From Planctomycetota bacterium (lineage in GTDB: Bacteria; Planctomycetota; Phycisphaerae; Phycisphaerales; SM1A02): 56,537 nucleotides of DNA. The DNA lies in contig JAQCEQ010000017.1 of NCBI GenBank assembly GCA_027618565.1, positions 1-56,537 on the forward strand. Reading direction: 5' to 3'. A program made the position numbers and the translations under genes. Shown piece by piece: positions 36,962 through 44,719 of this stretch (positions are counted from its first letter, which is position 1; every line of letters begins with the position of its first letter). The notes below the pieces were generated by a model. It saw only the letters and a program-made list of their open reading frames with translations. It did no database searches and had not been told where the DNA came from.

Positions 36962-37102
36962 GACCGGCGGCGTCATCCGATGGTGCCCACTTTCGCGCGC
37001 TGGGTGTGTCGACTCCGGTCTAGCAAGGTCGCATCGGAAGTACGCGTGGGAGCACACTACGGATCCAAACACTGCGCCACTTCCGGTGGCCCCGGCGGGG
37101 CG

Positions 37103-39070
37103 ATGCGCGGCAAGCAGCTCCCCCTGTGGCGTTCGGTCTTGGGCAATGCCGATCTCCTGAGTGCGATCGGGAGCGGCGCGCTTCTCGGCGGAGGGTTCGT
37201 CGCGGGACATCTGGTCGCCGCACCTCCCGAGGACCCATCACCGCTGGTGACGGGCATCTTCCTGGCCAGCGCACTCATTGGCGGCTGGCGCGCGGTGCTC
37301 ACGTCGCTACAGCAGTTGTTGCGATTCCAGTTTGATGTCGACCTCCTCATGGTGGTCGCGGCGATCGGAGCGGGCGCCGTGGGTCGCATCGAGGAGGGAG
37401 CGATGTTGCTCTTTCTCTTCTCGCTCGGGCACGGGCTGGAGGGGTTCGCGACGGAGCGCGCGCGACGAGCCATCGATGGACTGGGTGCGCTGACTCCGGA
37501 GGTGGCGTCGCGCATGCTGGACTCCTCAAGCGCCGCAGGTGATGTCGAGGTGGTGCGTGTCTCCTCCCTCGCGGTCGGTGACCTTGTGCGCGTGCTGTCG
37601 GGCGAGCGCTTGCCTGTGGACGGCGTCGTCGAGCGCGGCGAGTCCAGCGTGGATCAGTCGCCCATCACTGGCGAGAGCGTGCCGGTGGCCAAGGTGGCGG
37701 GTGCGATGGTCTTCGCCGGCTCGCTCAATGGCGATGGTGTGCTGATCGTGCGCGCGACCAAGCTGTCGAGTGAGTCCACGATGGCGCGCATGGTGCGGCT
37801 GGTGGAGGAGTCGCAGGCCAGCAAGGGTCGCGTCCAGCGGACCGCGGAGAAGTTCACGCGCATCTACACGCCCGTCATCCTGGTCATCGTTCCCATCCTG
37901 ATTGGAACGCTCTGCTCCCTGGGCTTCAACTTTGCGGACGCATTCACGCGGGCCATGGCGGTGCTTGTTGGGGCGTCACCGTGCGCGCTGGCCATCTCCA
38001 CTCCGAGCGCTGTGTTGGCTGGGATCGCTCGTGCGGCGAGGGCCGGAGTGCTGGTCAAGGGTGGCGCGTCCATGGAGGCGTTGGGAATGGTCGACGTCGT
38101 CGCGTTTGACAAGACGGGAACGCTGACCGCCGGGACTCCAGAGGTCACGGAAGTGCTGGCTGCCGACGGACACTCGCGCGAGTCTGTCTTGCGAATAGCC
38201 GTGGCGCTGGACGCGCAGAGTTCGCACCCGCTGGCGCGAGCTGTCGTTCGAGCCGCGCAAGCCGTCGGCCTCAATGGTGCGGCGACGACCGGCGCCGCGG
38301 CGACTGCGACCGGCGTTCGAGCGCTTCGTGGAAAGGGCGTAGCCGGCGAAGTGGACGGCGAGCGCGCCGCGCTGCTCTCGCCGCGAGCCGTCATCGCCGG
38401 AAGCGAGTGGCCAACTCCCGACGACACGCTGCGCGCCGCGGTCATCGCGGCTGAAGCACGCGCGCAGACCGTGTCGATGGTCGTGCTGGGTTCCAGGGTC
38501 ATCGGCGCCATCGGCATCTCGGATCCCCCGCGTGCCTCGGCAGCGAGCACCATCACGCGCTTGCGCGCGAGCGGCATTCGTCGGACGGTGATGCTCACAG
38601 GTGACAACTCCGAGGTGGCGCGTGCGATTGGCCTGGCCGTCGGCGTGGACGAGGTGCGGGCCGACCTCTTGCCGGAACAGAAGATCGATGCGGTCAAGCG
38701 GCTGTTGGGTGAATCCAGGGGTGTCGCCATGGTTGGCGATGGGGTGAACGACGCTCCGGCGCTGGCCGCGGCCACGGTGGGCATCGCGATGGGCGCGGGC
38801 GGGACCGATGTAGCGCTTGAGGCAGCGGATGTGGCACTCATGAGCGACGACTTGTCGGCGCTTCCGTTTGCGTTCGAGCTCTCGCGGCGAACTCGCACGA
38901 TCATTCGCCAGAATGTGGCGATCTCGCTCGGCGTGGTGGGGCTGCTGGTGATTGCGGCCTCGATCGGCTGGGTCGGCCTGGGCGTGGCGGTCGTCCTCCA
39001 TGAGGGGTCGACCGTGATCGTCGCGTTCAATGCGCTGCGGCTGCTGGGGTACTCGGGATCCCGAGTCTAG
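37103..39070 (+). CDS. P1B-4-type heavy-metal exporting ATPase
   Basis: A 655-residue P-type ATPase without N-terminal metal-binding HMA domain. Key motifs in order: PITGESVPV (actuator), GASPCALAIS with Ser-Pro-Cys at 292–294, DKTGTLTAG with the phosphorylated Asp336, SHPLARAV, and VGDGVNDAPALAAA. The last membrane helix contains HEGST at 633–637. The combination SPC plus HEGxT and no HMA is the P1B-4 group, which exports cobalt, ferrous iron or zinc. The start was placed at ATG 37103; ATG 36980 is possible but would add 41 residues without homology. It is immediately followed by a broken Rrf2 regulator, which may once have controlled it. Confidence 0.88.
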   Translation: MRGKQLPLWRSVLGNADLLSAIGSGALLGGGFVAGHLVAAPPEDPSPLVTGIFLASALIGGWRAVLTSLQQLLRFQFDVDLLMVVAAIGAGAVGRIEEGAMLLFLFSLGHGLEGFATERARRAIDGLGALTPEVASRMLDSSSAAGDVEVVRVSSLAVGDLVRVLSGERLPVDGVVERGESSVDQSPITGESVPVAKVAGAMVFAGSLNGDGVLIVRATKLSSESTMARMVRLVEESQASKGRVQRTAEKFTRIYTPVILVIVPILIGTLCSLGFNFADAFTRAMAVLVGASPCALAISTPSAVLAGIARAARAGVLVKGGASMEALGMVDVVAFDKTGTLTAGTPEVTEVLAADGHSRESVLRIAVALDAQSSHPLARAVVRAAQAVGLNGAATTGAAATATGVRALRGKGVAGEVDGERAALLSPRAVIAGSEWPTPDDTLRAAVIAAEARAQTVSMVVLGSRVIGAIGISDPPRASAASTITRLRASGIRRTVMLTGDNSEVARAIGLAVGVDEVRADLLPEQKIDAVKRLLGESRGVAMVGDGVNDAPALAAATVGIAMGAGGTDVALEAADVALMSDDLSALPFAFELSRRTRTIIRQNVAISLGVVGLLVIAASIGWVGLGVAVVLHEGSTVIVAFNALRLLGYSGSRV

Positions 39071-39410: not shown

Positions 39411-40760
39411 CTACCCGCGGGCCTCGTCTTGAGGAATCTGGTGACCGTGGGGGTCGATCGTCGCGTTGGTTTCCGAGGCCAGTTGCGCAGCCAGTGCGTC
39501 GCCCGTCACATGCTCCAGGCGACTGGCGGTGGCGTGCACATGGTCTGGTCGGAGCGACGCTTGTTCAGTGAGGTACGACTCCCACAGTCGATGCGATCGA
39601 ATCACTCGGGATGCTTCACGGCTGCCCTCGGTGGTCAAGAGGATCCGCTGTTCGTCGCGTGCATCGACCAGCCCGCTGCGAGCCAGTGCGTTGATGGCCG
39701 CCATCATCACCCGGCGCCCGACGGCCATCTGCTGAAAGTGTTCACGCACGGCCACTCGCTGCACTGGCAACCCGCGCTCCTGGCTTCTCCACAAGAGGGC
39801 CAGCAGCTCCTCGCGGGCAATCCGCTCTCGCAGGCGTCGCTCACGCAGCACGCGAAGCACGATGCCGCGCTCGGGACCGATCAGTGCGCATGCGAGAAAG
39901 AGCAGGCCGGCCACGACGGCGATGGAACCAGCGCTGGAAGTGTCGCCAAGCGCATCGGAGGCCAGCGGCGGGACCGCGATGGCGGCGAGGTGACCCACGA
40001 TGCTGGCGACCACGGCAAGCGCGGGTCCGAGGAGGAGCATTGGACCCAAGCGGCTGGTGAGCATGCGAGCACCCGCGGGAAGCGCGGCAAGGAGCGCGAC
40101 GACGAGGATCGACCCCACGCTCTCGAATGCAGCGACGCTGACCATCGCCACCAGCGCAGCGAGGAGGAGATCGACCACGAGGGGCCTGGCGCCGATCGCC
40201 GCCGCGAATCCGGGGTCGAACGCTGACAACCGGAGTTCCTTGAAGAGGATCCACGACACCAGGCCGCACACGACGAGTGCGACGAGCAGTATCGGCACCG
40301 CGCGTGGCACGGTGAATGAATCCAGCCCCGGAACGCTGATCGTCACCACGTCGATTGGTGTCAGCTCCAGCGCACCATAGAGCACGCACGACGGATCCAG
40401 GTCCACGCGGTCCGCACCCTGCACGATCATGACCAGGCCAATCGCGAAGAATGCGGTGAAAGCCACGCCAAGCGCGGCGCCGCGATCGACGCGAAGGGTT
40501 CGCTCCAGGACGACGGCGAGAAGCAAGCACGCCACGCCACTCACGGCAGCGCCGGCCAGCATGAGGAGCGGGTCCCGTGACTGGAATGCAAGGAATGCGC
40601 CCGCGATCCCGGGGAGCACGGCGTGCGTCACGGCATCTCCGGCCATGACACGACCGCGCACGAGCAGCCACGCGCCGGGGATCGCGCAGGCCGCGCCGGC
40701 CAGCGCTCCGACCGCGATGATCCAGCCATCGATTTCCGGGATGAATGGCCGAACGGGCAT
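39411..40760 (-). CDS. Metal ABC transporter permease with C-terminal DtxR-like tail (second permease)
   Basis: A 449-residue protein. Residues about 1–300 form an ABC-3 (ZnuB/MntB/YtgD type) permease with 8–9 membrane helices and the GDAVTHAVLPG motif near 40–51. The last ~130 residues are cytoplasmic. A winged-helix-like part (REELLALLWRSQERGLP, RRVMMAAINALARSGLV) is followed by a segment matching the DtxR metal-binding/dimerisation domain: SHRLWESYLTEQASLRPDHV, ASRLEHVTG with Glu416-His417, and DPHGHQIP. In Chlamydia the fused YtgC-R permease is cleaved to release a repressor, and this tail has the same layout. The gene overlaps nothing; it is 2 bp after the upstream permease. Confidence 0.88.
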   Translation of the reverse strand: MPVRPFIPEIDGWIIAVGALAGAACAIPGAWLLVRGRVMAGDAVTHAVLPGIAGAFLAFQSRDPLLMLAGAAVSGVACLLLAVVLERTLRVDRGAALGVAFTAFFAIGLVMIVQGADRVDLDPSCVLYGALELTPIDVVTISVPGLDSFTVPRAVPILLVALVVCGLVSWILFKELRLSAFDPGFAAAIGARPLVVDLLLAALVAMVSVAAFESVGSILVVALLAALPAGARMLTSRLGPMLLLGPALAVVASIVGHLAAIAVPPLASDALGDTSSAGSIAVVAGLLFLACALIGPERGIVLRVLRERRLRERIAREELLALLWRSQERGLPVQRVAVREHFQQMAVGRRVMMAAINALARSGLVDARDEQRILLTTEGSREASRVIRSHRLWESYLTEQASLRPDHVHATASRLEHVTGDALAAQLASETNATIDPHGHQIPQDEARG

Positions 40761-40762
40761 GA

Positions 40763-42070
40763 CTAGGCCGTCGCTCCCCCGCCGCGGCGGTCCAGGTCTC
40801 GCTCCAGTTGCTGCACGAGCTCGGGGCCAAGGACATGCTCGATGATGTCCGCGTCACGGTCCACATGCGTCGGCGCAATGTCAGCGCGTCGAGTGAGGTA
40901 CTCCTCCCACAGCCGGTGAATGCGTTCGAGCGAGCGCGCTTGGGCGGACCCCGCCTCGGTCAGCGTGACTGCGTCGCGTGTGGCTGTCCACTGGATGTAT
41001 CCACGGCGGGCCTCGCGACCGATCAGCGCACGCAACCGCGGCCCGCTCCACGAGCGTCGCTGCAAGAGTGTGGCGAGCGCGACGGGGGTGCGGCGCAAGA
41101 GGGCAGCGGGCGTCGTGGCCGGACGCTCGCAGGGCGAGGACAGTTCCCACATCGCGCGTAGAAGGTGTTCACGCCTCACGCGCGCTTCCAGGCGCCATCG
41201 ACGGAGCGCACGCCAGAGGACTCCCTCCGCCGGCCCAACCACGAGCGCCACGAGGAAGGCCGCGCATGCAACCAGGACACAGAGTGCGCCGGCCGGCAAG
41301 TCGGGTGCCGACGCTGAGAGCAGTGCGCCGCCCGCGCCGCTCAGCGCCCCGATGGCCGACGCAATGGCGACCATCGAGCCCGTACGAACCGTGCAGGCTC
41401 GAGCCGCGGCGGCTGGCGTGATGAGGAGCGCCACCACGACCAGCAGTCCTGCGGCCTGCATGCCGACGACGATGACCAGCCCCAGTGCCACCATGAGCAT
41501 CGCGTCGAGGCGTCGGGTTGGGCGCCCGATCGCCTGCGCGAATGGCTCGTCGAAACAGAGGAGTCGCCACTCCTTGAAGAGTGCCAGGGTGAGGATCAGC
41601 ACCACCGACGCGCCGGCGAGCACCGACCAGAGGTCGCTGCTGGTCATGCTGGCCACGTGCCCCAGAAGGAGATGCGTCAGGCCCGCTTGCTGCCCTGTCG
41701 GCAGTGACTGCACGATGCCCAGGAGCGCCACGCCAAGCCCGTAGAAGCACCCGAGCACGATGCCCATCGCGGCGTCGTCGCGCAACCGCGTCTGTCGGCG
41801 GATCCACGACACGCACCACGCGCCGGCGAGCGCGGTCAGGGCAGCGCCGAGTGCGAGTGCGGGGAGCGACCGCGTAAGGCCGAGCGAGGCTGTCACGATG
41901 AATGCGATCGCCACGCCGGGAAGCGCGGCGTGGCTCATGACATCTCCCAAGAGCGCACGGCGGCGAAGCAGCACGAAGGCTCCGGCCGCCCCTGCGGCGG
42001 CGCCGAGCAGACTCACGGTGAGCAACACCGTGCGAAGCGTCCAGTCCATCATGGGTGGCGGCGGCTCCAT
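40763..42070 (-). CDS. Metal ABC transporter permease with C-terminal DtxR-like tail (first permease)
   Basis: A 435-residue protein. The ABC-3 permease part (about 1–285) includes GDVMSHAALPGVAIAF and many hydrophobic helices. The tail of about 140 residues contains a helix-rich region (VRREHLLRAMWELS), then SLERIHRLWEEYLTRRADIA, HVDRDADIIEHVLG with Glu411-His412 and GPELVQQLERDL. This again matches the DtxR dimerisation domain, although more diverged at its end than the other permease. Start 42070 has GGGAG 6 bases upstream. It lies 13 bp after the ATPase gene. Having the regulator-like tail on both permeases is unlike Chlamydia, where only YtgC carries it. Confidence 0.88.
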   Translation of the reverse strand: MEPPPPMMDWTLRTVLLTVSLLGAAAGAAGAFVLLRRRALLGDVMSHAALPGVAIAFIVTASLGLTRSLPALALGAALTALAGAWCVSWIRRQTRLRDDAAMGIVLGCFYGLGVALLGIVQSLPTGQQAGLTHLLLGHVASMTSSDLWSVLAGASVVLILTLALFKEWRLLCFDEPFAQAIGRPTRRLDAMLMVALGLVIVVGMQAAGLLVVVALLITPAAAARACTVRTGSMVAIASAIGALSGAGGALLSASAPDLPAGALCVLVACAAFLVALVVGPAEGVLWRALRRWRLEARVRREHLLRAMWELSSPCERPATTPAALLRRTPVALATLLQRRSWSGPRLRALIGREARRGYIQWTATRDAVTLTEAGSAQARSLERIHRLWEEYLTRRADIAPTHVDRDADIIEHVLGPELVQQLERDLDRRGGGATA

Positions 42071-42083
42071 GTGGTACTCCCGG

Positions 42084-42905
42084 TCAGGCGACGCCTCGGC
42101 TGGCGGCCTGGCGCAAAGCCTCCGCGGCCTCGGAGAGGATCGTCAGGCGTCCGCCATAGGTGCGGGCGACGTTCTCCTCAGTGAGCGTGTGGGCGGTGGC
42201 TCCTGCTGCGATCACGCGCATGTTGAGGAGCACGCACCAGTCAAAGTTCTGCGACGCCGTGGCGAGATCGTGGTGGACGGCGATGATGGTGCGACCCTCA
42301 CGCTTGAGTTCGGCGAGCACGCCCAAGATCACCTGTTCCGTCGATGCGTCCACGCTGGCGAGTGGTTCATCGAGGAGATACACCTGTGCACGCTGCATCA
42401 GCGCACGCGCGAGGAAGACGCGCTGCTGCTGCCCTCCCGACAGTCGCCCAATCTGCCGCATGGCCAGGTCCGCCATGCCGACACGATCCAAGACAGCACG
42501 CGCCTCGTCTATCACCGCGCGGGACACGCCGCGGAACCAGCCGATGCGCGGATACGCGCCCATGGCGACGACATCGACTGCGCGCACGGGAAACTCCCAG
42601 TCCACGCTCTCGCGCTGCGGCACATAAGCCACCATGCGGCGCTGCGTGTCAAAGGATGCTCCGTGCACAAGGACGCGCCCGCTCGTCGTCGCGACCTGGC
42701 CGAGAATCGCCTTCAGAAGCGTGCTCTTGCCGGCGCCGTTGGGGCCAACGATGCCGCACACGCTGCCAGTGGGAAAGTCGAGATCGATGTCCCACAGCAC
42801 GGGGCGACCGTCATAGGCAACCGTCAGATCGTGAATGCAGATCGCGGCGTCGGACGAGTGTTCGGCGCCGGGAAGGGTCGCGGGCGTGGCGTGAATGAGT
42901 GGCAT
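42084..42905 (-). CDS. Metal ABC transporter ATP-binding protein
   Basis: A 273-residue ATPase of the Mn/Zn importer class. Walker A is GPNGAGKST, the Q-loop YVPQRESVDWEFPV is typical of ZnuC/MntA/YtgB proteins, the signature is LSGGQQQRV, Walker B is VYLLDEP, and the switch His is in AVHHD. It energises import of divalent metal with the two permeases encoded downstream and the binding protein encoded upstream. The first 20 residues are variable. It is separated from the binding-protein gene by 58 bp. Confidence 0.93.
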   Translation of the reverse strand: MPLIHATPATLPGAEHSSDAAICIHDLTVAYDGRPVLWDIDLDFPTGSVCGIVGPNGAGKSTLLKAILGQVATTSGRVLVHGASFDTQRRMVAYVPQRESVDWEFPVRAVDVVAMGAYPRIGWFRGVSRAVIDEARAVLDRVGMADLAMRQIGRLSGGQQQRVFLARALMQRAQVYLLDEPLASVDASTEQVILGVLAELKREGRTIIAVHHDLATASQNFDWCVLLNMRVIAAGATAHTLTEENVARTYGGRLTILSEAAEALRQAASRGVA

Positions 42906-42963
42906 GGGGTGTGTCCTCGTGCGAGTTCGTTCGATCTGTGAAGTCTCTGTGGTCGATCAGGGT

Positions 42964-44142
42964 TCAGGCCGTCGCGGGCCGTGACAGAGAGCCGTCATGG
43001 CCAAGCGGATGGACATCGCCACCAAGCGCGGTAACGATGGTGGTGATGTCGTGGTCGATCATGCCGATGTAGGTGCCCTCGTGCGTGCCGGGATCGCCCA
43101 AGCTGTCGGCGTAGAGCGTGCCGCCAAGCTTCACCGTGTGCCCGCGTGCGGCGGCGCCCTCGATGAGCGCCTGCACGCTCTTGTCGGCCACGCTCGATTC
43201 CGCGAAGACGGCGGGAATCTTGCGCTGGACAATGAGGTCGACGAGGCGACGTACATCGTCAAGGCCGGCTTCTGATTCGGTGGAGACGCCCTGGATGCCG
43301 AAGACCTCGAATCCGAAGGCGCGACCAAAATAATGAAACGCGTCGTGCGAGGTGATGATGACGCGACGCTCGGGGGAAATGGTGGCGGTGCGCTCGATGC
43401 CCCACGCGCGGAGCGCGGCGAGGCGCTGCTGGTAGAGGTGCGCCTGGGTGTGGACGATGGCGGATGCGGCGGCCGCGGTGGTGGTGGCGTTGGCGGTGGT
43501 GGCGCTGGTGGCGCTGGTGGCGCTGGTGGCGCTGGTGGCACCCAGCTCGAGGGACTCGATCACGCCCGTCGCGGCCCGCGCTGTGCATATCGACCAGAGT
43601 GCTGGGTCCATCCACACATGCGGATCCCACGCGGCGTGGCTGCGGCCGGTGTTCGCGACATCGCTGGGCGCGCTGGTGCCATTGCCGGAGTCGCTCTCGT
43701 CGCCCACCGCAAACAGGTCGGCGTGCGGAATGGCATCGCCAAGGGCGATGACGGGGCGCCCGGTCGAGGCGGCTCGCGACAGCGTCTCCCCCATCTTGCC
43801 CTCCAGACCAAGGCCAACGACGAAGATGGCCGTCGCCGACATGAGGCGCGCCACATCGCTGGCGGTCGGTCGGTAGAGGTGTGGGTCGACGCCAGGCCCC
43901 ATGAGGCTTGAGGCTTGGATACCCTGGCCGCGCGCGAGGAAGTTGACCAAGTCACCGACGAATGGCGTGGTGCACACAAGTTGCCCTCTCGTTGCGGATC
44001 CGGGCTCGGCGCAGCCCCCAAGGAAGGAAGTCACGCTTGTCCCAACTCCACACAGGAGCCCCAGGGAACAACTGCCTCCCGCTGCTACAACCCATTCTCG
44101 GCGTGTGAGTTGTGGAGTGGAGATGGGTTTTCTTGTAGTCAT
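42964..44142 (-). CDS. Metal ABC transporter substrate-binding lipoprotein
   Basis: A 392-residue cluster A-I binding protein. The N-terminus has a twin-arginine-like TRREWVVAAGG and a lipobox-like LGGC, so it may be a Tat-exported lipoprotein. Four expected ligands are visible: His in VDPHLYRPT, His in WDPHVWMDP, Glu in VFAESSV and Asp in YADSLGDPG. The His-His-Glu-Asp set favours manganese or iron over zinc, and there is no His-rich loop. A low-complexity Ser-Ala-Thr segment (residues about 202–225) comes from a 9-bp repeat. The ATG at 44142 has no SD and lies inside the operator at 44134–44171; the message may be leaderless. Confidence 0.9.
   Translation of the reverse strand: MTTRKPISTPQLTRREWVVAAGGSCSLGLLCGVGTSVTSFLGGCAEPGSATRGQLVCTTPFVGDLVNFLARGQGIQASSLMGPGVDPHLYRPTASDVARLMSATAIFVVGLGLEGKMGETLSRAASTGRPVIALGDAIPHADLFAVGDESDSGNGTSAPSDVANTGRSHAAWDPHVWMDPALWSICTARAATGVIESLELGATSATSATSATSATTANATTTAAAASAIVHTQAHLYQQRLAALRAWGIERTATISPERRVIITSHDAFHYFGRAFGFEVFGIQGVSTESEAGLDDVRRLVDLIVQRKIPAVFAESSVADKSVQALIEGAAARGHTVKLGGTLYADSLGDPGTHEGTYIGMIDHDITTIVTALGGDVHPLGHDGSLSRPATA
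43498..43540. repeat. 9-bp tandem repeat inside the binding-protein gene
   Basis: About 4.7 copies of GGTGGCGCT. On the coding (minus) strand it encodes Ala-Thr-Ser repeats. Expansion by slippage would stay in frame. Confidence 0.9.
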
Positions 44143-44171
44143 GGCTACATCATTATGTAGTATTTGCTACA
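44134..44171. promoter_or_regulatory. Phased double operator of the metal-uptake operon and its regulator
   Basis: Four half-sites alternate in orientation at exact 11-bp steps: TGTAG 44134, CTACA 44145, TGTAG 44156, CTACA 44167. Each adjacent pair forms TGTAG-N6-CTACA (or its everted form). The array lies between and over the divergent starts of the binding protein (44142, minus) and the DtxR/MntR-like gene (44180, plus), and overlaps −10-like boxes for both (CATAAT leftward, TAGTAT rightward). The AT-rich content contrasts with the surroundings. It is the likely binding site of the adjacent regulator. Confidence 0.8.
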
Positions 44172-44179
44172 TTGTGTCA

Positions 44180-44719
44180 ATGGGCTCCCCGCGGCTAGAC
44201 AATCGATTCTCGAAGACGCGGTCAGACCACCTTTCCGAGCGCGCCGAGGACTATGTGGAGGCCATTGCGGACCTGGCTGGGGCGAATGAGTCGGGTGGAT
44301 GCCGGGTTGGGGCGCTGGCGGCCATGCTTGAAGTGTCACATGTGACTGTCGTGCAGGCACTTGTGCGTCTGGAGAGTCGTGGCCTAGTGAGGCGCAAGTT
44401 GCGCGGGCCTGTGTTTCTCACGCCAGCGGGCAGGCGTATGGCGGAGCGATCGCACGGAAGGCATGCGATCGTGTTGGAGTTCTTGCTCTGGCTGGGGGTG
44501 GGGCGCAAGGCGGCTGAACGTGATGCTGAGGGACTGGAACACCATGTCTCGGAGGAGACACTCACGCGGATGCGGATCGCGATGCACCGATCGGCGTCGG
44601 TTGGGCCTGCGGTGGACAAGTCGGGGCGGGAGCGAGTTGAGGGCGGACATGCCACCCGCGCGAGCGACGCGCTCCGCGCGGCGGTCAAGCAGAGCAGCCG
44701 CGCTCCGGGTCGGCGGTAG
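44180..44719 (+). CDS. DtxR/MntR-family metal-dependent regulator
   Basis: A 179-residue protein. An N-terminal winged helix (SERAEDYVEAIADLAG, CRVGALAAMLEVSHVTVVQA, split after VGAL) has recognition helix SHVTVVQALVRLESRGLV. The metal-binding/dimerisation domain follows with HGRHAIVLEFLLWLGV and AEGLEHHVSEETLTRM, containing the conserved Glu-His pair. There is no SH3-like third domain, which matches MntR rather than DtxR. The tail beyond the domain is about 45 residues and basic. It is divergent from the importer operon across the operator at 44134–44171 and probably represses both sides when metal is sufficient. Start 44180 is the first ATG after the operator, without SD. Its 3' end overlaps nagZ by 35 bp, convergent. 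Confidence 0.88.
   Translation: MGSPRLDNRFSKTRSDHLSERAEDYVEAIADLAGANESGGCRVGALAAMLEVSHVTVVQALVRLESRGLVRRKLRGPVFLTPAGRRMAERSHGRHAIVLEFLLWLGVGRKAAERDAEGLEHHVSEETLTRMRIAMHRSASVGPAVDKSGRERVEGGHATRASDALRAAVKQSSRAPGRR

Follow-up and report, generated by a model that had tools for sequence, protein, structure and literature searches.

A metal importer operon in the 56,537-nucleotide stretch of Planctomycetota DNA studied here (the window; contig JAQCEQ010000017.1, from a Phycisphaerae genome of 2.26 Mb) encodes two permeases, referred to hereafter as C and D, each of which carries a C-terminal tail of DtxR fold with conserved metal ligands. The genes run binding protein–ATPase–permease–permease on the minus strand, which bears out the Ytg-like order (as in chlamydial ytgABCD) proposed in the original prediction, and an MntR-type gene lies divergent to them. 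We see about an even chance that the two tails are tethered cytoplasmic metal sensors which, as two unlike partners, regulate the importer much as trans-inhibition domains do.

Both permeases are ABC-3 proteins (PF00950) by profile and by fold. Pfam places the ABC-3 match at residues 15–291 of permease D (E 1.3e-27) and 11–278 of permease C (E 4.7e-59), leaving ~157 residues past the match in each, and finds Fe_dep_repr_C at 376–444 of D (E 6.7e-17, 61.7 bits) and 371–427 of C (E 3.5e-12, 46.6 bits), above the cut-off of 27 bits. The profile of the DtxR DNA-binding domain (Fe_dep_repress, PF01325) matches neither window tail at E ≤ 10 and does match the stand-alone protein; of the two profiles expected in the tails, one is thus found in both and the other in neither. 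A sequence search of the PDB aligned the D tail (317–444) with MntR, IdeR and DtxR chains (best E 6.6e-13) and the C tail (332–424) with DtxR (best E 2.7e-4). AlphaFold2 models of the permeases (mean pLDDT 92.3 for D and 88.1 for C, the metal domain of C being weaker, with ten-residue blocks at 59–79) place both tails among DtxR-family structures, as had been anticipated: the D tail matches with Z 17.8 (root-mean-square deviation 2.4, 135 residues) and the C tail with a best Z of 13.4 (2.4, 120 residues), although Z ~13 is borderline for helical proteins and, for the C tail, it is the sequence match that carries weight. Foldseek agrees with a DtxR fold (E 3.2e-5 for the D tail; a weak E 0.014, probability 1.0, for the C tail). 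In these models the tails resemble DtxR, IdeR and MntR, the cores resemble PsaC (Z 30.6 for D, 32.2 for C), and a joining helix of 27 (C) or 30 (D) residues is predicted to begin just past the last membrane helix and to pass into helix 1 of the DtxR fold. A DtxR-type metal/dimerisation domain on each permease, as predicted, is therefore upheld by profile and structure matches alike; the Glu–His pairs are present at E416–H417 (D) and E411–H412 (C), the divergent MntR-like protein has both DtxR-family domains, and the forecast of up to three metal-sensing DtxR-type domains at one importer is borne out, these being the only three PF02742 matches in the genome (two tails and the stand-alone protein).

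Double fusion is common to many relatives and to other phyla, and is not peculiar to the window genome. The order-level sets were found by permease homology, which matched 55 of 61 genomes including the window's own; regions were taken for 44 relatives, and partial, unpaired or unfused matches were left out (G005, G009, G029, G033, G038, G039, G044, G048, G051, G052). Both permeases are tailed at 30 of the resulting 45 loci (the window included), 23 of these 30 having a DtxR-family gene in the stretch; the remainder have a tail on C only (2) or D only (3), untailed C and D (3), two untailed C-like permeases (2), or a single permease, tailed (5, two of them cut by contig ends). Across the phylum 101 of 119 genomes matched, and regions were picked, among the matches listed, for long or paired ones, so that the 33 regions (30 further genomes) are not a fair phylum sample; in 11 of them tails reach the metal half on both permeases, 6 (from 3 genomes) have tailed permeases that form a pair but are unlinked, 6 contain one tailed permease only, and in 4 there is no full tail. 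Tailed C and tailed D permeases that lie far apart in the genome (L129/L130, L132/L133, L140/L141) have kept the tail in both, and D permeases that stop after the winged helix, with no metal domain, occur in L112, L113, L114, L116, L118 and L120 (where C has a full tail) and in L136 and L142 (where C has none). A scan for the motif HRLWESYL, of which we consider the best 80 of 238 loci, gave two tailed permeases at 17, two permeases with one tail at 12, one tailed permease at 38 and no permease at 13; going by their labels, the 17 come from Planctomycetota (Tautonia sociabilis, an isolate, among them), Verrucomicrobia, Kiritimatiellae, Bdellovibrionales, Latescibacterota, one genome labelled Gemmatimonadota, and others. 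Tails were cut from domain ends throughout, since some long open reading frames (e.g. L041, L047) are chimeric, an artefact of start-codon choice where frames overlap.

The metal ligands, at what we take to be their positions in DtxR numbering, were placed on the alignment of the tails and differ consistently between the two permeases. In the C group (n = 35) His10 is found in 33, His79 in 35, Glu83 in 33, Asp98 in 34, Asp102 in 33, and Glu105 and His106 in 35 each, whereas D tails (n = 32) have Asp or Glu at position 10 (32), His79 (31), Glu83 (31), His98 (31), Glu105 (32) and His106 (32), with a variable position 102 (Glu 16, Met 9, others 7; Ser in the window D tail). One D tail, from L059, was sorted with the C tails by its score and is counted in the C group for the ligand, identity and profile comparisons. 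The same difference is seen again in double fusions from Verrucomicrobia, Bdellovibrionales and Latescibacterota (L218 has its two tails swapped between “first” and “second” in the ligand and identity comparisons of the scan double fusions), and single tails elsewhere have His98, Glu105 and His106 in 50 of 50. His79 and Glu83 are likewise present in all 50 single tails, a uniformity that is partly selection, since these two residues belong to the motif on which the scan selects. Consistently different ligand sets that recur in other phyla fit C and D tails that are non-interchangeable partners, as judged from sequence. A tree of the tails, built on 93 columns and leaving 43 of its 81 inner branches open, does not reject a single clade for either C tails (approximately unbiased p, p-AU, 0.813) or D tails (0.899); MntR-type and IdeR-type stand-alone proteins each form one side of a branch.

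Comparison of the two halves suggests that the DNA-binding half is not maintained in the tails and that the metal half is. Fe_dep_repr_C is present in 37 of 37 C-position tails (three from single-permease operons) and 33 of 33 D tails; at E ≤ 0.01 Fe_dep_repress is found in none of these 37 and none of these 33. The doubly fused loci of the HRLWESYL scan give no Fe_dep_repress match either (0 of 34 tails), while all 34 stand-alone neighbours match both profiles. At matched metal-half identity (0.4–0.6), winged-helix identity is 0.470 among stand-alone regulators (bootstrap 0.404–0.524, n = 48) as against 0.116–0.168 in five groups of tails, and a winged-helix profile scores a median of 54.0 bits (minimum 30.2) on held-out stand-alone proteins (n = 48) as against medians of 2.8 for C and 1.8 for D tails. 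Between helix 2 and the wing, 4 of 32 D tails span fewer than 30 residues, the median for this segment in stand-alone neighbours being 42. A partial regulator, L039_reg, was left out of the later stand-alone sets. These figures bear on the idea that the tails are degenerate leftovers of fusion with little function, which we hold to be very improbable: related operons without tails (5 of 45) and the partial loss of ligands in L135 and L137–L139 would suit it, but the order's 35 C-group and 32 D tails show near-invariant ligands next to a drifting winged-helix half, and other phyla repeat the C/D difference.

The operator follows the free regulator. The promoter stretch at 44134–44171, singled out in the original prediction, consists of exactly two operator-like palindromes, and TGTAGC-N4-GCTACA with at most one mismatch has no further site in the whole genome. 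Across the loci, this sequence (box A) is found at 21 of 27 with an MntR-type neighbour and 1 of 22 with an IdeR-type neighbour, and a second, TTTTGA-N4-TCAAAA (box B), at 14 of 22 with an IdeR-type and 0 of 27 with an MntR-type neighbour, counts to be read with the consensus having been taken from the same promoters beforehand and with two stretches scanned at loci that have a neighbour (regulator class was set by length, more than 175 residues from the domain start being called IdeR type). The 22 loci with no neighbour in the stretch divide into box A 3, box B 8, both 2 and neither 9, and random 460-base stretches of the same loci contain boxes A and B in 26 and 35 of 1420. Fisher tests give p ~2e-7 and 5e-7 for the association of box and regulator class, kinship ignored. 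Among doubly fused order-level operons with a neighbour, those of MntR type have box A in 18 of 18 and box B in 0 of 18, those of IdeR type A in 0 of 5 and B in 3 of 5; the operator thus switches along with the free regulator, and the tails are retained in either case. Stand-alone regulator class goes with operator, and the sequence evidence supports the view that the tails are not the factor binding this operator. Among 29 relatives with the double fusion, PF02742 is matched three times or more in 27. The other two, G006 and G008 (95–96% complete), have only two, with no stand-alone DtxR-family match in the genome and neither box at the operon, which fits loss of the operator along with the regulator and would also allow the tails to be the sole regulators there; in G032 the only stand-alone match is 192 kb off, in a 265-aa frame, and a perfect box B lies at the operon.

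The original prediction held that the tails might be released or tethered, and of these tethering fits better; tails as released repressors are not supported, in that Pfam finds no DNA-binding half, this half is hardly conserved, the operator tracks the stand-alone class and, in the models, a helix joins tail to core. A Ytg-type arrangement, in which one or both tails are cut off and, alongside MntR, repress this operon or other genes as soluble proteins that depend on metal, appears unlikely. It draws on the YtgR tail, found cleaved in Chlamydia and able to bind the ytg promoter (according to the review PMC5599777), on the winged-helix fold and basic charge kept in the tails, and on G006 and G008, in which the tails could be the only such regulators; yet 0 of 70 tails match the DNA-binding profile, their winged-helix half drifts, the operators go with the stand-alone class, and the operons of G006 and G008 are themselves without either box.

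A second context for such domains came from the 13 permease-less scan loci (L174, L177, L180, L181, L185, L187, L190, L194, L196, L206, L209, L213, L222), at which a DtxR-type protein with HRLWESYL is encoded in a frame of 339–398 residues. Each of the nine sequences read opens with a hydrophobic, membrane-helix-like stretch (preceded in L222 by extra N-terminal residues, perhaps an artefact of the start chosen); six were scanned, with Fe_dep_repr_C and FeoA in 6 of 6 and Fe_dep_repress in 0 of 6, and the following gene matches Gate and FeoB_C in both loci scanned (L194, L206). With this second design beside FeoB, a tethered DtxR domain with no recognisable DNA-binding domain seems to adjoin two unrelated importers. 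More broadly, we entertain, tentatively and at somewhat less than even chances, that a widespread DtxR class has left DNA to become tethered importer-gating sensors, with C and D as an obligate heterodimer of unlike sites and the same switch at FeoB; if true, one post-translational switch would be shared by two unrelated metal importers.

For the window operon, we propose that the stand-alone MntR controls transcription at the two boxes of the divergent promoter, and that the tails no longer bind DNA in a recognisably sequence-specific way but have kept the metal ligands and dimerisation domain. The tails would lie on the cytoplasmic side and pair with each other on the C–D heterodimer; in a metal-replete cell cytoplasmic metal would fill them, and the filled tails would restrain the transport cycle via the joining helices. 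MetNI and ModBC provide the precedent: in these ABC importers dimerising cytoplasmic domains block the cycle on binding substrate (PMC10710835). With a single permease in the operon (L062, L070, L071), the same tail would be present twice. We infer the sign of the tail effect, the identity of the metal, the pairing and the cytoplasmic side, and propose gating itself by analogy. Alternatively, the tails may be a metal buffer or docking platform at the importer exit, taking metal or holding a partner such as MntR, or an aid to assembly, with no gating. Conservation of metal ligands without the DNA-binding half would suit such a role, and D tails with only a winged helix suggest a protein–protein function for that part; but a dimerisation domain and unlike ligand sets on the partners suggest a paired sensor more than a buffer, and we regard this alternative as doubtful.

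Several observations weigh against tethered sensors acting as an unlike pair. The untailed operons (5 of 45) indicate that the importer can work with no tails; in 6 of 33 phylum regions C has a full tail and D a winged helix only; and in L135, L137, L138 and L139 short tails on both permeases have several ligands replaced (e.g. EH to EK in the C tail), so that the sensor may be dead or changed in that lineage. Neither these four nor the lineages with D winged helix only fit a simple metal-bridged pair. Both tail models retain the winged-helix fold, and Fe_dep_repress is still matched by a few single tails (4 of 50). A weak winged-helix signal, 10 bits or more, persists in 6 of 38 C-position tails, 3 of 32 D tails (one being that of the window), 19 of 50 single tails, and 4 of 34 and 4 of 48 other tails. 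YtgR of Chlamydiae, a proven DNA-binding tail, is not among the best 80 of the 238 scan loci, and the contrast lacks that control. The association of box and regulator class is not significant when kinship is allowed for (two independent pairs on starred branches); regulator class switches at least six times on the permease tree, and all pairings drawn differ in the expected direction. The tails are, furthermore, the more basic proteins, with a mean net charge of 4.2 and 3.7 as against 2.1 in stand-alone regulators. Lost positive charge had been considered as a sign of lost DNA binding and was rejected.

Features of the importer locus, in positions of the window.
Feature	Position	Strand	Basis or remark
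Permease D (449 aa, P0001)	39411..40760	-	ABC-3 core, DtxR-fold tail from ~residue 311; Pfam, PDB sequence search, AlphaFold2
Permease D tail as cut for alignments (winged helix and metal/dimerisation domain)	39414..39872	-	
Permease C (435 aa, P0002)	40763..42070	-	ABC-3 core, DtxR-fold tail from ~residue 293; Pfam, PDB sequence search, AlphaFold2
Permease C tail as cut for alignments	40766..41230	-	Asp at DtxR positions 98 and 102
ABC ATPase of importer, 273 aa	42084..42905	-	Pfam
Metal-binding protein of importer, ZnuA family	42964..44142	-	Start codon overlaps box 1; true start unsure
Operator-like palindrome 1, TGTAGC-N4-GCTACA, one mismatch	44134..44149		Promoter
Overlapping palindrome between boxes, CTACAT-N4-ATGTAG	44145..44160		1 match; at least one with up to 2 mismatches in 24/100 shuffles, hence weak alone
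Operator-like palindrome 2, one mismatch	44156..44171		Promoter
Stand-alone MntR-type regulator, DNA-binding and metal domains	~44180..44719	+	Start codon assigned by choice

The overlap of box 1 with the annotated start codon of the binding protein (44140–44142) may mean that repression acts at the start of the message, or that the real start codon is further inside the gene. Visual inspection shows a twin-arginine-like motif (RREWV) at the start of the binding protein and a lipobox-like LGGC, and an Ala-Thr-Ser repeat stretch (43460–43542) divides its ZnuA match in two. Adjoining the importer is a 696-residue open reading frame (36980–39070) in which the P-type ATPase motif DKTGT is visible by eye, possibly a metal pump. 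The substrate of the importer is probably manganese or iron.

Single permease–DtxR fusions are already known from 11 phyla (review PMC5599777). A search of open-licence literature, covering titles and the beginnings of abstracts and hence a weak negative, found none on double fusions whose ligand sets differ, on a decaying DNA-binding half or on gating by tethered domains. YtgABCD of Chlamydia trachomatis is the nearest likeness, drawn here from its description rather than from chlamydial sequence: it shares the gene order and an ABC-3 permease with a C-terminal DtxR-type tail and metal ligands, whereas only YtgC is described as a fusion in that same text, and here both permeases are tailed, neither tail has a recognisable DNA-binding domain, and a separate MntR with a matching operator adjoins. 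Our survey suggests, more generally, that in most of the fused tails examined the DNA-binding domain is no longer recognisable and that the operator goes along with a regulator encoded separately. Stand-alone DtxR, IdeR and MntR share the two-domain fold and metal ligands of the tails, which differ in being fused to permeases, in carrying HRLWExYL and in having no Fe_dep_repress match. The PsaBC manganese importer (7kyp, 7kyo) resembles the permease cores, but the matched PsaC chains (258–290 residues) are untailed. MetNI and ModBC are alike only in the logic we propose, in which a cytoplasmic domain dimerises and senses what is imported. In those importers the ATPase bears the regulatory domains, and their folds are different (PMC10710835), whereas here the ATPase, at 273 aa, has no such domain and the permeases bear domains of DtxR fold. 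If the tails do gate transport, they would offer a system of known fold, testable with purified protein, for asking how an imported metal shuts its own importer.

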